Shown here one piece after another: positions 25,514-33,268 of a stretch of 64,000 nucleotides of DNA. The stretch comes from Lysobacter sp. Lineage in GTDB: Bacteria; Pseudomonadota; Gammaproteobacteria; Xanthomonadales; Xanthomonadaceae. Numbering within the stretch: the first letter of the stretch is position 1; each line of letters starts with the position of its first letter. Made by a program: the position numbers and the translations under genes. A model generated the notes under the pieces. It was not told the origin of the DNA. It worked only from the letters and a program-made list of their open reading frames with translations, and did not search any database. The stretch lies in NCBI GenBank assembly GCA_013141175.1, contig JABFRN010000001.1, forward strand, positions 2,996,001 through 3,060,000, given 5' to 3'.

Positions 25514-26074
25514 CTAGCCACCGACGAAATCGGCCGGGTCGAGTTCTTCCGCCAGCAGCAGCCGGATGTCGTCCGTCGACAGCAGCATCTTCAACTGCGC
25601 CGCGAGCGGCTTCAGCTGTTCGTGCTGCGTGCACAGCGCCCAGATCCTGTCGATCATCGTCTCGAAATCGACGGAAGGGTCGTACGCGATCGCACCGCTC
25701 CCGGCGACGATCTGCAGCAACTGACGCGCCATGTCGCGTGCCTGTTCCACCTTGAGCGCACGCGGTTGCAGCGCGTGCTGCAGCGAGAGCTGCAGTTCGT
25801 GCACCAGGCCGATCGCGATCGTCTGCTGACGCCGACGCAGCGTGCCGCGCTTGTCGTCGTCGAACACGGGCGCGAGGATCCGCGCCTTCAAGCCCGAGAT
25901 TTCCGCAGCTTCGACCAGGCGGTGGGTGGAGAGCAGATCCTCGGCGCGACGGATCCAGTCCATGAGCGTCGTCATGACCTGCGGCGATTTGCGTTCGAAC
26001 TGGCGCACGATGCCCGGCATTTCGAGCAGCGCGTCGGAGAGCTGCCGCGTGAGTTGGAATGTCGATCTGAGCAT
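25514..26074 (-). CDS. Third gene of the DUF2589 operon, helical protein of unknown function
   Basis: The product has 186 residues, predicted mostly alpha-helical, with no signal peptide. Segments such as FQLTRQLSDALLEMPGIV, LMDWIRRAEDLLSTH and LGLVHELQLSLQHALQ look like amphipathic helices suited to oligomerisation. It begins 6 bp after the stop of the 235-residue gene, so the genes are clearly cotranscribed. I recognise no family. A cytoplasmic partner or assembly factor for the two DUF2589-like proteins is the simplest reading, by position only. Confidence 0.7.
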   Translation of the reverse strand: MLRSTFQLTRQLSDALLEMPGIVRQFERKSPQVMTTLMDWIRRAEDLLSTHRLVEAAEISGLKARILAPVFDDDKRGTLRRRQQTIAIGLVHELQLSLQHALQPRALKVEQARDMARQLLQIVAGSGAIAYDPSVDFETMIDRIWALCTQHEQLKPLAAQLKMLLSTDDIRLLLAEELDPADFVGG

Positions 26075-26080
26075 GGTCGC

Positions 26081-26788
26081 TTACTCCGGCAACAGCTTGC
26101 GTTCGATGCTGCCATCGCTCTTCTCGATGGTCTGCCATTCCATCCCGTCTTCGCTGACGGTCATCCGGATGCGGATCACGTCTTCCGGGCGCTGTTCGCG
26201 CAGGCGATGGGACTCGGCGATGACCGAAAGCTGGTCGAGCACGGGTTTGTCGACGACGCCGGTCACCAGGCCGATGCCGAGTTCGTAAGTGCGCTTGGTG
26301 ATCTCGTCCTGGCGGTATCCATCCGGAAATTTGCCTTCATGCAGCTTGGCTTCGGTGCCGATCTCGAACAGATCGGCGACGATCCTGTCGGCGTAGATCA
26401 TGGTCGGCTTCTGGATATCGCCCTCGGCCTTGATCTGTTCCACCAGCGCGGTGATGCGGCTGTCCAGTGCTGCCAGCAGCTTCTGAGCGGCGATCGGCGG
26501 AAGTTCGGTGTAGCCGACGAATCGCGACAGTTCGCGCGCGTTGACGCGCTTGAACTCGGCGTTGCCGATCGGATCGAGCTGATAGCCGACGCGTTCTGTC
26601 AGACCTTCGATCGCGACCGGAATGATCAGTTCGATATCGCTGATGCGCATACGCGGGACCGAGAAATGTTTGAGCAGGTCGTGTTTGGCGTATTGCTCGG
26701 CGACCTGCACGGTCTGTACGTCCGCCATCACGCGCGCATCGGTGATGCCGCTGAAGAGGCCGCCGAGGTATTCGTTGAGAGTTGCCAT
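26081..26788 (-). CDS. Second gene of the DUF2589 operon, DUF2589-like core
   Basis: The 235-residue cytoplasmic protein begins MATLNEYLGGLFSGITDARVMAD. Residues about 38-62 (LLKHFSVPRMRISDIELIIP) parallel the LTIPALRIETLTIDF segment of the first gene, suggesting a shared beta core and common ancestry. The middle is helical (NARELSRFVGY, AALDSRITALVEQIKAEG) and the C-terminus is charged. An AGGA site supports ATG 26788. A strong hairpin lies between this gene and the first gene and may lower its expression. Function unknown. Confidence 0.72.
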   Translation of the reverse strand: MATLNEYLGGLFSGITDARVMADVQTVQVAEQYAKHDLLKHFSVPRMRISDIELIIPVAIEGLTERVGYQLDPIGNAEFKRVNARELSRFVGYTELPPIAAQKLLAALDSRITALVEQIKAEGDIQKPTMIYADRIVADLFEIGTEAKLHEGKFPDGYRQDEITKRTYELGIGLVTGVVDKPVLDQLSVIAESHRLREQRPEDVIRIRMTVSEDGMEWQTIEKSDGSIERKLLPE

Positions 26789-26815
26789 GGTCGTGTCCTG
26801 GGAAATGTATGAAGT

Positions 26816-26838
26816 GGGGCCGGCATGAAGCCGGCCCC
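26816..26838 (-). promoter_or_regulatory. Strong intercistronic hairpin inside the DUF2589 operon
   Basis: GGGGCCGGC (26816-26824) and GCCGGCCCC (26830-26838) form a perfect 9-bp GC stem with a 5-nt loop, in the 59-bp gap after the first gene. There is no T-run, so it looks more like an mRNA-stabilising or attenuating element than a full terminator. It would make the first protein more abundant than the next two. Confidence 0.6.
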
Positions 26839-26847
26839 GGTGTTGCA

Positions 26848-27435
26848 TCAGGCGCTGACGATGCTGTCTTCCAACATGGTCAGGATGCGATCCAGACCGG
26901 CCGGAATTTCGTCGTTCACCGCGTGCACGCGCACGCCGAGGTTGTAGGTCTTCTCGACGCTGGTGCCGCTGCTGGCCGTCCGCTTGTACGACGCGGAAGC
27001 CTTGAAGTTGACGATCTTGTAGTTGATGCCGAGTTCGGCGCTTGCCGCGAATTCGCTGGAGACGTTGGAAGTCTCCGTCGAGGTCAGCTTGGCGTTGAAG
27101 TCGATCGTCAGCGTTTCGATCCGCAGTGCGGGGATCGTCAGCATGGTCAGGAAGGGCACCGAGATGTTCACTTCGGCGTCGATGAACGGCTCGTTGGTCG
27201 GGCCGGCCGGCAGACTCGAATCGAACGCCGGATTCGGGGCTTTCTTCTTGTAGTTGAAGTCGACATAGCGCAGGTCGGTGATGTTGCCGCTGGCATCTTT
27301 TTCGAAACCGACTTCCTTGATGAAATTGACCTGCGACATCGACGCGGCATGCTGCGCCTGCACCGCCGCCTGCAGCGGACCACCGATGTAGACGCTGAAG
27401 TCGAGACTGTTGAGTTCCTGGACGAGATTGGGCAT
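26848..27435 (-). CDS. DUF2589 domain protein, first gene of a three-gene operon
   Basis: The 195-residue protein starts MPNLVQELNSLDFSVYIGGP and continues LQAAVQAQHAASMSQVNFIKEVGF, the typical DUF2589 opening, followed by NISVPFLTMLTIPALRIETL and IDFNAKLTSTETSN. There is no signal peptide. The family has no established biochemical function that I know of. AAAGGAG about 8 nt upstream makes this a strong translation start. It leads an operon with a DUF2589-like paralogue and a helical protein, preceded by about 730 bp without genes. Confidence 0.85.
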   Translation of the reverse strand: MPNLVQELNSLDFSVYIGGPLQAAVQAQHAASMSQVNFIKEVGFEKDASGNITDLRYVDFNYKKKAPNPAFDSSLPAGPTNEPFIDAEVNISVPFLTMLTIPALRIETLTIDFNAKLTSTETSNVSSEFAASAELGINYKIVNFKASASYKRTASSGTSVEKTYNLGVRVHAVNDEIPAGLDRILTMLEDSIVSA

Positions 27436-28167
27436 GGGTATTGCTCCTTTGATTGATGGCCTACTCTGTTGCGGCTTTTCGGCTTCCGCCGCCTGCGTGC
27501 TGTACCGTCCGCCGCGACGACGCGCACCATCCGTGGCGTGCGTCGTCGAAGGCTGAGCGTCCTTGCGGAAGGCGACTCCCTGTCGCTTTCCCGGTGATCT
27601 ACGAGAGGTCCGCCCGGCACGCAATCGGGCGGTCGCGGATACGGTGATGTCTTTGCGTGCTGTCCATTATCCGGAGCGTGGTCGCACAGGCTGCGACCTC
27701 GAAAAAGCTTGTAAATCAGGAAAAAATGTGAATTTCCAGCTTGCCTGGAAAGGATGCCTGCCAAGCCTGTTTCGAGCCACGCAGGGTGGGCTCAAGCCTG
27801 TGGTATCCCGATTTCCTTGCCCCAGGAAATCTAGCGCAACGATTGATCGGCAGTCACAGTTCTTTCACCCGTCGTTCCCTCGAACGCGGGAACCCGGTGC
27901 CTTTGCGCTGGGCAGAAGCTGGAAGTTTCTGGATCCCCGCGTTCGCGGGGACGACGACGCTTTTTGAAACGCACGGAAAAGCGGGGATACCTCAGGCTCA
28001 AGCCCGCCATGGATGCCCGCTATCGAAATACGCCAGCGACGCTGCGGCATGATCGCAGTCGATCGTCGAAGACGGATCGGTACTTCGATGCGGTGTTCGT
28101 ACGCTGTTTCGGCGGGCTTGGGCCCGCCCTGCGACCGCTGGTGTGGTTTGCGGTCGTGAAGCTCCGC
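27436..28167. other. Large gene-free region upstream of the DUF2589 operon
   Basis: About 730 bp without a convincing gene between two minus-strand genes. It should contain the promoter of the DUF2589 operon. An AT-rich stretch at about 27700-27735 is the best place for it, though I cannot fix hexamers. The left half (27460-27660) is GC-rich and structured; the right half holds nested inverted repeats (separate entry). A small RNA or long leader cannot be excluded. Confidence 0.5.
27868..27957. repeat. 90-bp inverted-repeat element with outer palindromic flanks
   Basis: The left end CCCGTCGTTCCCTCGAACGC and the right end GCGTTCGCGGGGACGACG are imperfect inverted repeats about 90 bp apart, the layout of the widespread CGTCATTCCCGCG...CGCGGGAATGACG elements. 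Each end also carries its own small palindrome (CGCGTTCGCGGGG). Outside it, CTCAAGCCTGTGGTATCCCG (27791-27810) and CGGGGATACCTCAGGCTCAAG (about 27980-28000) are a second inverted pair, giving a nested structure. It probably derives from a small non-autonomous element. Confidence 0.6.
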
Positions 28168-29589: not shown

Positions 29590-30780
29590 TCAGTTCTTTC
29601 GCGTCGGTTTCGGCTTCAGCCAGCGCAGCAGGCGATCGGCGACATCGGGGTGGCTGAGCAGGTCCAGATGATGCATGCCGTAGCCGATCCATTGCCGGTT
29701 CTTCGCGAATCCGGTGACGCGATCCGGGTCCGGATGATGTCCGAGCGCGCTGGCAACGGGCACCAGGCCATCGCCGATCCAACGGTCCTTGAGATCGCCA
29801 CGACGACTCCCGGTGGTCGCCGCGATCGCATAGCAGCGTACGCCCTTGGGCAGCGATACCGCACGATGGCGGCTGCGCATCGACAGCGCGTTGCCGTGGC
29901 GCAGATCGGTGATGCCGGCGCTTCTGAGTTTGCCGACGCGCGCGAGCGGCGCTGCGAAAGGGGTCGCTGCGAGAACGAGATCGATCCAACGGCCGCCGCG
30001 TTCCAGCGGCGCGCCCTGGTGCGGCGAACCCATGCAAATGAGATTGCGCAGCGATCCGAGCCAGGCATGATCGTGCACGGCGGCATGATGGCAAGCGCTG
30101 CGCGCGAGCAGGCCGCCCATGCTGTGTCCGATGATCGTGATCTCGTCCACGGGCATCGGCCATTGCGCGCGCAGCGTTTCCAGCAGCTCCGCGAAGGCGT
30201 GGCCATTCTGTGCGATGGATCGTCCGGTGTTGTAGTGCAGGTACAGCGGCGTGTAACCGAGCGCTTCCGCGAGCATCGCGCCGTGGTCGTGATCATCGCG
30301 CGTCCACTGCAGATCGTTCATGCACAGGCCGTGCACCAGGACGAGCAGTTTGCGGCCGGCATCGGGAATCGCGTCGGACAACAGTTCGGTGCGCAGCGTC
30401 AGCGGTTGGCCCGCGTGATGCAGCCGCATCGGGATCGCGAGCGGGTTGGCGGTGACCGCGAGGTGATCGCCCACCACGCCATTGAGCGCCGCGACGATCG
30501 CTTCGCGCTGCGTCGAGGTGCGTTGGTAGGCGGTGCCTTGTCGACCGAGTACCGCGTCCAATCCGGCGCCGGTCAATCCGGTCACGCCACGAATGCCGCG
30601 ATAGACCAGGCCGGCGATGCCGCGGGTGCGTTCCGGTGCCGCGTGGCGCAGGCCCAGGTCGGGGCGGGCGATCGCGGCGTGCATCGCTTCGACCAGATCG
30701 GCGACGCCGGTGGTCGCGTCCACACCGAGGCGTGCGACGCCATGGAGATCGGACAGACGCGGGGCGTATTTGTCGAGCAT
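29590..30780 (-). CDS. Alpha/beta hydrolase, PGAP1/lipase-like
   Basis: The 396-residue protein has an N-terminal region of about 150 residues without clear similarity, then a hydrolase domain: LLVLVHGLCMNDLQW (oxyanion region), the nucleophile elbow IIGHSMGGLLARSAC, MGSPHQGAPLERGG and a late histidine in YGMHHLDLLSHPDV. The GSPHQG motif is typical of triacylglycerol lipase/PGAP1-like esterases. No signal peptide is seen. MLDKYAPRLSD at 30780 is chosen as start because the upstream in-frame extension has no protein-like character. Substrate unknown; an ester or lipid is likely. Confidence 0.82.
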   Translation of the reverse strand: MLDKYAPRLSDLHGVARLGVDATTGVADLVEAMHAAIARPDLGLRHAAPERTRGIAGLVYRGIRGVTGLTGAGLDAVLGRQGTAYQRTSTQREAIVAALNGVVGDHLAVTANPLAIPMRLHHAGQPLTLRTELLSDAIPDAGRKLLVLVHGLCMNDLQWTRDDHDHGAMLAEALGYTPLYLHYNTGRSIAQNGHAFAELLETLRAQWPMPVDEITIIGHSMGGLLARSACHHAAVHDHAWLGSLRNLICMGSPHQGAPLERGGRWIDLVLAATPFAAPLARVGKLRSAGITDLRHGNALSMRSRHRAVSLPKGVRCYAIAATTGSRRGDLKDRWIGDGLVPVASALGHHPDPDRVTGFAKNRQWIGYGMHHLDLLSHPDVADRLLRWLKPKPTRKN

Positions 30781-30937: not shown

Positions 30938-33268
30938 TCAGAAGGTGATGCTCCAGCTGTCGATACGACCGATGTCGCCAGCGGCGTTGTCGTTCACGCG
31001 CAGGTTCCATGTGCCGTTCAGCGCTTCGGTCGACAGATTCACGCTGAAGGTCTGGTTGATGTTGTCGGCGCTGCCGCCGGTGCGGTTGTGCAGCACGTAC
31101 ACGCTACCGTCCGGCGCGACCAGATCGACCTTCAGATCGCCCTTGTAGGTGTGGACGATATTGACCAGCACCGGCGTGCTGGCCAGCGCGTTGCCGGTGC
31201 GGCCGGAAACGACGATCGGGCTGTTGACGGTGGCGTTGTCGGCGATCGGGACATCGGTGCCGTTGGTGTAGGTCTGCGTGCCGCTGGTGGCGACGGTGAC
31301 CGACTGCGTTTTCGTATTGGTCAGTCCGCCGTTGTCGGTGACGGTCAGGCTGACGCTGTAGGTACCTGCGGCGGAGTATGTCCTGCTTGGATTGGTCGCG
31401 GTGGAGAGCGTGCCGTCGCCGAAGTTCCAACTGCGCGAGGCGATGCTGCCATCGCTGTCGGTGGAGGTGTCGGTGAAGCTCGCGGTCAGGCCCGAGGAGC
31501 TGGCGCTGAAATTGGCCACCGGTGCGACGTTGCCGCCACCGCCGGTGGTGATGTTCAGCAGCACCGCATTCGGCGTGCCGAGCGCGCCGGAGGCGTCGGT
31601 GCCCTGCACGTAGACGATGTGGCGGCCGACGCCCAGGCCTGTGGTGGAGAGGCTTGCGGTGGCCGTTTCGCTGGTGGCGTTGAAGCTGCCGTCGCTGGCG
31701 GTCATCGCGATGCCCACGGCGCCGGCTTCCCACGGCGGAATATCGACGTAAAGCCTGGCCGATGCGATGGCCTGGGTGGCTTCGGTGCCGTTGGTCTGGT
31801 TGAACTGGCTGTCGTTGAGGGCCGCGGTGATCGTCACCGGCGTGCCGGCGTTCACCGTGGCGCTGGAGGTGGTCACGCTGACCGTGTTCGGGCCCGAGGG
31901 ATAGCGGTAGGGCGCGGTGAGATTGCGCGCGGCGTATTTCAGCATCGCCAGATTCTTCGGCAGCGTCGACGAGGTGAATGTCGTGCACGACTCGAAGAAC
32001 GACACGCCCAACTCGATGGTGTAGCTGGGCACGCCGAGCAGGCCGTACATGTTGTCGTCGGTGGCGCCGTCGGTGCCGTACAGCTCGGCCGACTGTTGCG
32101 GACGGTAGCTGTTGAACCACGCCATGCGCCGGCCGAAGGTGCGCAGCGCGGCGGTGTTCGGCGCTGCGGCGGAGGTATCGCCCCAAGGCCACAGCACCAG
32201 CTGCGAATAGCTGTGGATATCGAGGAACAGGCCCTGATAGTCGTCCGGCGCCGCGCTGCTGACGGCGTCGCCGCGACGGTCCGGGAAGATGCCGCCGGTA
32301 TAGACCCCGCCCGCACCGGGCGTGCCGGCCACGAAGCGCACGAGGTTCTGCGTTTCCGGTTCCGACTGCGCCACCGGGCCGTGATAGGTCTCGGCGCAGG
32401 CGTTGGGACTGGAACCGCCGGAGACGGTGTTCCAGTGGAAGGGGAAATTCCGGTTGAGATCGGTGCCGACCGTGGTCGCGGTGCAGGTGCCGTTGGTGTT
32501 GTTGACGTTCTTGCGCCAGGAAAGGCCGGTTTCCGCTTTTTTGCGGCCGTCGGGATTGGCCTGCAGGATCAGGTAGAAGGTGTAGTTGTCCATCAGCCAG
32601 GTGGCTTCGGGATCGGTGCCGTAGCCGTTGACCAGCCATTCGGCGTAGCGGGTGACGAGTTCGGCAGGCGTGTATTCGCGCGCATGGATCGAACCGAACA
32701 CCACCATCGGCGGTTTGTTCGGGCGCAGCGCATTGGTGGCCGAATTGGTCAGCCGCAGCACCTTCATGTCGTAGCCGCCGGTGTTGCGCGACTTCAACCA
32801 GCTGGGGCCGATGACCGACATGCTGGCCAGCGCCGGCTTGGCGGCGACGAGCTGGTCGATGGTGGTGTAGGTCTCCTCGACCGTGCGGTAGCAGGCGTAG
32901 CCGCTGATGCTGCGGGTACCGAACTGCTGTTGCGCCATCGCCGATTCGGCGCCGCGGATGCGATCGGTGGCAGCCTGGTCGACGAGCACCGACAGGCCCA
33001 TGCCCTGGAGGTCGAGGATCTCCTGCGCCGTGGCTTCGGTGCGCACGGTCTTGGCGCTACGGTCGACGATCATGTGCTGGAAGCGCGAAGCCAACGCCTG
33101 CAATTGCGCGCGGTTGCGGTACTGGATGCTGACGAACGAGAGGCTGTCGTCGCCGGTCGCGGTGGGCGTCGGGATGGATCCGGTCGGCGGCGTGACGGGC
33201 GGCGCTGCGCTGGACTGGCCGGCGATGCAGACCAGAAGGGCTGCGGGCAACAACAAACGAAGGTTCAT
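30938..33268 (-). CDS. Secreted M14 zinc carboxypeptidase with PKD and P domains
   Basis: The 776-residue exoenzyme has a signal peptide (residues 1-21), a propeptide-like region to about 120, and an M14 domain with zinc ligands His195 and Glu198 in SIHAREYTPAE and His352 in LDIHSYSQL, and catalytic Glu419 in YTIELG. TDLNRNFPFHW provides substrate-binding Asn-Arg. A beta linker (about 450-560) is followed by a PKD domain (about 565-650; ASRSWNFGDGT) and a C-terminal proprotein-convertase P-type domain (about 660-776; DLKVDLVAPDGSVYVLHNRTG), which in such secreted proteases is often removed on maturation. It is probably a type II secretion substrate. GGAGA supports ATG 33268. Confidence 0.93.
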   Translation of the reverse strand: MNLRLLLPAALLVCIAGQSSAAPPVTPPTGSIPTPTATGDDSLSFVSIQYRNRAQLQALASRFQHMIVDRSAKTVRTEATAQEILDLQGMGLSVLVDQAATDRIRGAESAMAQQQFGTRSISGYACYRTVEETYTTIDQLVAAKPALASMSVIGPSWLKSRNTGGYDMKVLRLTNSATNALRPNKPPMVVFGSIHAREYTPAELVTRYAEWLVNGYGTDPEATWLMDNYTFYLILQANPDGRKKAETGLSWRKNVNNTNGTCTATTVGTDLNRNFPFHWNTVSGGSSPNACAETYHGPVAQSEPETQNLVRFVAGTPGAGGVYTGGIFPDRRGDAVSSAAPDDYQGLFLDIHSYSQLVLWPWGDTSAAAPNTAALRTFGRRMAWFNSYRPQQSAELYGTDGATDDNMYGLLGVPSYTIELGVSFFESCTTFTSSTLPKNLAMLKYAARNLTAPYRYPSGPNTVSVTTSSATVNAGTPVTITAALNDSQFNQTNGTEATQAIASARLYVDIPPWEAGAVGIAMTASDGSFNATSETATASLSTTGLGVGRHIVYVQGTDASGALGTPNAVLLNITTGGGGNVAPVANFSASSSGLTASFTDTSTDSDGSIASRSWNFGDGTLSTATNPSRTYSAAGTYSVSLTVTDNGGLTNTKTQSVTVATSGTQTYTNGTDVPIADNATVNSPIVVSGRTGNALASTPVLVNIVHTYKGDLKVDLVAPDGSVYVLHNRTGGSADNINQTFSVNLSTEALNGTWNLRVNDNAAGDIGRIDSWSITF

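Follow-up and report, generated by a model that had tools for sequence, protein, structure and literature searches.

Three adjacent genes on the minus strand of a 64,000-nucleotide stretch of Lysobacter sp. DNA, the whole of which is called the window here, form one conserved operon that starts with a member of the DUF2589 family (PF11655). Because the unit is conserved, and because related pairs of DUF2589 genes, including those of phages, often stand beside enzymes that digest the cell envelope, this cassette probably represents cellular machinery that has not been described before, and not a fortuitous grouping of genes. What would such a machine do? Our proposal, made tentatively and with low confidence, is that the three proteins would be the subunits of a DUF2589-family assembly in the cytoplasm, which would hold, guard or help to export leaderless envelope hydrolases in the manner of type 10 secretion. 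The preliminary description of the operon proposed no mechanism; the connection with envelope hydrolases that lack a leader is added by us.

To our knowledge, no function has been described for the DUF2589 family. A literature search found a passing mention of the lactate-induced genes AF0414-AF0417 of Archaeoglobus fulgidus (PMC3949148) and nothing further. Neither function nor fold is known for any part of the system, which, if its function is found, may turn out to belong to a type already described. An operon that persists across phyla and encodes a likely major subunit together with two partners lacking any known fold would thus seem to be a system not described before.

A three-gene operon kept across phyla

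Gene 1 (26848..27435, minus strand) encodes a DUF2589 protein of 195 amino acids, likely the major subunit, which matches PF11655 over residues 17-190, nearly the entire profile (E 7.3e-29, 101.5 bits against a Pfam gathering cut-off of 23). Gene 2 (26081..26788, minus strand; 235 amino acids) encodes a putative diverged DUF2589-like partner with a helical insert, and gene 3 (25514..26074, minus strand; 186 amino acids) an accessory protein outside known families. Neither gene 2 nor gene 3 has a match above the cut-off in Pfam, NCBIfam, PHROG or PADLOC; gene 2 lies below the Pfam gathering cut-off for DUF2589 and matches no Pfam family at E <= 5. Genes 1 and 2 are separated by 59 bp and genes 2 and 3 by 6 bp, the latter exactly as in the preliminary description, and hydropathy agrees with its statement that none of the three proteins has a signal peptide; no transmembrane stretch is seen in them either. 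The observation of a three-gene DUF2589 operon with a hairpin after gene 1 is thereby confirmed. There is a single DUF2589 gene in the window's genome.

Conservation was followed by searching with gene 2 in genomes of the window's order, of its phylum, of Bacteroidota and of Chryseobacterium. When duplicates are merged, 40 distinct gene-2 loci are obtained, and DUF2589 lies immediately upstream on the same strand in all of them (40/40). Gene 3 follows immediately downstream in 38/40, usually at a distance of 6 bp or less or with a 1-base overlap, and the two remaining loci are rearranged and contain a further DUF2589 gene. Order and strand of the unit are kept in Lysobacteraceae, other Pseudomonadota and Bacteroidota. 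The three genes are thus one conserved operon, in support of the operon proposed from the single locus. Its prevalence is low yet wide: the gene-2 profile is present in 3/398 Pseudomonadota, 12/296 Bacteroidota and 22/60 Chryseobacterium genomes, and DUF2589 itself in 9/398 Pseudomonadota and 19/292 Bacteroidota genomes. Gene 2 has no match in the plasmids or viral contigs searched, and phages accordingly yielded no example of the three-gene cassette. Several cassettes are flanked by housekeeping genes.

The expectation that proteins 2 and 3 recur beside DUF2589 holds in one direction: in the 40 loci gene 2 is always accompanied by DUF2589, but most DUF2589 genes elsewhere, in the loci read, stand in groups of two or three paralogues that lack genes 2 and 3 as partners. 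Neighbourhoods of the kind that the preliminary description would have counted against its proposal are therefore found in the family at large and not where gene 2 is present.

A second type of cassette was seen in Chryseobacterium (L169:7193-10843, also L162, L163 and L179-L181). Its gene 1 is extended considerably at the N-terminus, and downstream of it come genes for a leaderless S8 protease and a protein of 67 residues. A family recognized by eye from a conserved WSAGCQ motif, which has no Pfam match above the cut-off, was encountered in phages that carry DUF2589 pairs and next to a single cassette (L171:5919-6515, L081:9947-10522, L122:9129-9374).

The hairpin after gene 1 and the kinship of gene 2

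The gap directly after gene 1 contains a hairpin (26816..26838, minus strand), whose arms at 26816-26824 and 26830-26838 form nine perfect G+C pairs out of nine around a 5-nt loop. Its minimum free energy of -23.6 kcal/mol corresponds to a z of -4.1 against dinucleotide shuffles, which bears out the earlier remark that a strong hairpin is present. It does not qualify as a textbook terminator, since no T run lies 3' of it on the minus strand. In equivalent gaps of 40-100 nt after the gene-1 stop codon, z is -2 or lower in 20/22 and -3 or lower in 15/22, values reached by 24% and 16%, respectively, of the control gaps, of which there were 134 (Mann-Whitney p 1e-7, a value that overstates the independent events because many of the 22 are related). 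Hairpins of unrelated sequence recur in Chryseobacterium, where T runs follow them, in Flavobacterium, in Lysobacteraceae and in another Xanthomonadales genome, and in some cassettes the gap is shorter than 20 nt and has no room for one. The hairpin is thus conserved after gene 1. An inverted repeat is also found upstream of gene 1 (window 27515-27548); its 15-bp arms pair imperfectly around a loop of 4 nt.

A recurrent hairpin at this position is what would be expected if gene 1 were made in excess. The mean identity of relatives to the window proteins is 57% for gene 1, 39% for gene 2 and 32% for gene 3, and gene 1 is more conserved than gene 2, and likewise than gene 3, in 34/36 relatives each. 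The hairpin and the top conservation of gene 1 fit a major subunit with two minor partners. Of the unequal stoichiometry suggested in the preliminary description, the hairpin has been reinforced by its recurrence in distant lineages, and the excess of gene 1 is what we infer from it.

How is gene 2 related to gene 1? First hhalign comparisons with few sequences gave no clear link, but a larger set evaluated with shuffles did: a DUF2589 profile of 136 sequences aligns to a gene-2 profile of 47 sequences with a score of 25.9, compared with a mean of 13.2 (SD 2.2, maximum 18.7) for 60 column-shuffled gene-2 profiles and 11.5 for the reversed profile. In this alignment the N-terminal helices (FSVYIGGPLQAAV and LNEYLGGLFSGIT) are matched and then, in the same order, the core motifs IPALRI and VPRMRI. 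The clear link is confined to the DUF2589a profile; with the b type, 4/60 shuffles reach the real score. Judged from these profiles, the VPxMRI / IPxLRI core noticed earlier is common to DUF2589 and gene 2 beyond chance, and gene 2 is probably a remote, diverged DUF2589 paralogue.

In the predicted model of gene 2 (pLDDT 81) a beta core is accompanied by an N-terminal helix and, at 76-174, by a helical insert; the model of gene 1 is poor (pLDDT 56) and not comparable with it. With the sequence comparison as its ground, a fold shared by the two proteins is likely. The gene-2 model has no match among PDB or viral structures at E <= 0.001, and a PDB sequence search with a single sequence and three profiles gave nothing credible, hence no solved homologue. 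Weak VIA-align rows for gene 1 (Z 3.3 at best) were set aside in view of the pLDDT of 56.

Enzymes at DUF2589 loci

About 33 loci were read, selected by DUF2589 and not by hydrolase, and a hydrolase was counted as linked if it lay within about 2-2.5 kb of DUF2589. Ten or eleven of them, about a third and mostly DUF2589 pairs, carry a Pfam-supported peptidoglycan hydrolase. The enzymes at DUF2589 loci belong to nine Pfam families (GH108, GH46, M15, PF11860 muramidase, CHAP, GH24, Amidase_3, GH19 and pesticin-type lysozyme), and the N-terminus of the partner hydrolases is not signal-peptide-like. Three-gene cassettes with a peptidoglycan hydrolase are found in three lineages (GH46, M15 and CHAP), DUF922 being a possible fourth. 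In 12 Xanthomonadales genomes, GH108 lies within 0.7 kb of 14/16 DUF2589 pairs; conversely, 14/17 GH108 genes in these genomes are at a DUF2589 pair and 3/17 elsewhere. The gene order there is GH108 endolysin, DUF2589b, DUF2589a and a conserved protein of 86 residues, to which several genomes add a small membrane protein; one of these small proteins matches the phage holin family phrog_2359 (E 3.7e-10), and look-alike small genes are present in other clusters. The DUF2589 proteins of these clusters are homologous to gene 1 of the window, whereas genes 2 and 3 are missing from them and the window cassette has no adjoining GH108 or 86-residue protein gene. We regard the hydrolase link as strong for DUF2589 pairs and as suggestive for the three-gene cassette.

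DUF2589 is also encoded on 52 IMG/VR contigs. In some phage contigs, as judged by eye, the DUF2589 genes stand beside ribonucleotide reductase-like genes or before terminase-like genes (L079, L100 and L115 near 6.5-9.1 kb; L075-L077), and one phage contig has a DUF2589 pair with GH24 and a SleB-type hydrolase (L085:7496-9742). In a rival reading, gene 1 would form a cytoplasmic structural polymer or scaffold (a filament, shell or tube) to which genes 2 and 3 contribute minor subunits, and the hydrolases would be passengers with no functional link to it. Marine phage pairs beside ribonucleotide reductase or terminase genes, the location of many cassettes between housekeeping genes, and a gene 1 far more conserved than its partners and followed by a hairpin would all suit a polymer, but nine hydrolase families in unrelated lineages and 14/16 GH108 adjacencies are hard to see as passengers, and we consider this reading possible but rather doubtful.

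Other leaderless partners have been encountered as well. A patatin or a Tle1-like phospholipase is added at some loci, and a subtilase, a trypsin-like protease or a TcB-like gene is present instead at others; the last, of SpvB/TcdB type, starts about 230 bp downstream of gene 3 of one cassette (L167:2622-6818). DUF2589 might accordingly be imagined as the carrier of a killing device, released or displayed with antibacterial effector enzymes that act on other cells. The partners do resemble such effectors (Tle1-like phospholipase with amidase, patatin with M15, pesticin-type lysozyme), and the TcB-like gene would fit, but a T6SS sheath gene is present in just 6/32 DUF2589 genomes and DUF2589 pairs are carried by phages as well; the idea is unlikely in our estimation. 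With the same count for the sheath family (PF05943), a T6SS accessory was rejected as the rule.

Patatin, subtilase and trypsin-like enzymes are common killing parts of known defence systems, and the partner varies between DUF2589 loci, as might be expected if they were abortive-infection defence modules whose killing enzyme can be exchanged. In a search of PADLOC models of anti-phage defence, however, genes 1-3 have no match at E <= 5, the loci read lie among housekeeping genes, often syntenic within a genus, and not in defence islands, and phages themselves carry DUF2589 pairs. A defence module is therefore improbable.

Regulators and small proteins also accompany DUF2589. A blind Pfam tally compared 133 neighbours near DUF2589 with as many control neighbours and covered the best 25 families of each set; GerE was the most frequent family among the near neighbours (5/133), and LuxR/NarL-type regulators repeatedly adjoin DUF2589 pairs (L063:3826-4536, L066:9495-10148, L069:6119-6817, L042:8771-9112). 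A protein of 86-94 residues with the motif GEHQ...YH.GF.RKP, two members of which were tested and belong to no Pfam family, occurs with DUF2589 pairs (L067:6766-7026, L042:10927-11211, L226:9317-9583, L227:7997-8263, L228:8434-8712).

A possible role in hydrolase release and the window's neighbours

In type 10 secretion, a holin lets an endolysin reach the cell wall and leaderless toxins escape (PMC10847048). DUF2589 pairs resemble this holin/endolysin/spanin arrangement in that their neighbours include leaderless endolysin-type enzymes and, in some cases, a holin-like gene. Leaderless partners at DUF2589 loci likewise need another exit from the cell, whereas the window cassette differs in having no adjacent endolysin. 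We know of no type 10 system that contains DUF2589 proteins.

An outline of the proposed process is as follows: gene 1 would provide the major subunit of the assembly and genes 2 and 3 minor partners in smaller amount; the assembly would hold or guard leaderless envelope-attacking enzymes, or help them across the inner membrane; and the enzymes would thereby be released under control, as holin/endolysin systems release leaderless enzymes and toxins. That the three genes serve a common function is argued from the conservation of the operon (40/40 and 38/40) across Pseudomonadota and Bacteroidota. That this function may concern hydrolases is suggested by the nine peptidoglycan hydrolase families, the 14/16 GH108 adjacencies, the holin-like gene, the leaderless partners and the phage pairs. 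The proposal is weakened by the lack of an adjacent hydrolase at the window copy, by the presence of one in only about a third of the lineages read, by the several cassettes between housekeeping genes, by the Pfam tally of near and control neighbours, which over the best 25 families of each set gave no decisive enrichment, and by structure searches with the gene-1 and gene-2 models, in which no fold match supports a pore or carrier.

A more general form of the proposal, which we think fairly unlikely, would make DUF2589 a new machine of phages and bacteria that stores leaderless envelope hydrolases or passes them through the inner membrane, the cassette being its chromosomal bacterial version. 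If the hydrolase link is causal, bacteria and phages would have a new route for getting leaderless envelope enzymes out of the cytoplasm, and the DUF2589 loci yield a short list of enzyme partners with which the link could be tested.

The cassette of the window is neighboured by a DEAD-box helicase, a leaderless alpha/beta hydrolase, a secreted M14 peptidase and a GNAT gene, and no leaderless peptidoglycan hydrolase or endolysin lies beside it. The nearest candidate enzymes are the alpha/beta hydrolase, beyond the DEAD-box helicase gene, and the M14 peptidase. Both are upstream on the minus strand: a leaderless PGAP1-like alpha/beta hydrolase at 29593-30780 and, at 30941-33268, a secreted M14 carboxypeptidase that contains PKD and P domains. 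An M14-like gene is the upstream neighbour of the cassette also in L035, L036 and L037.
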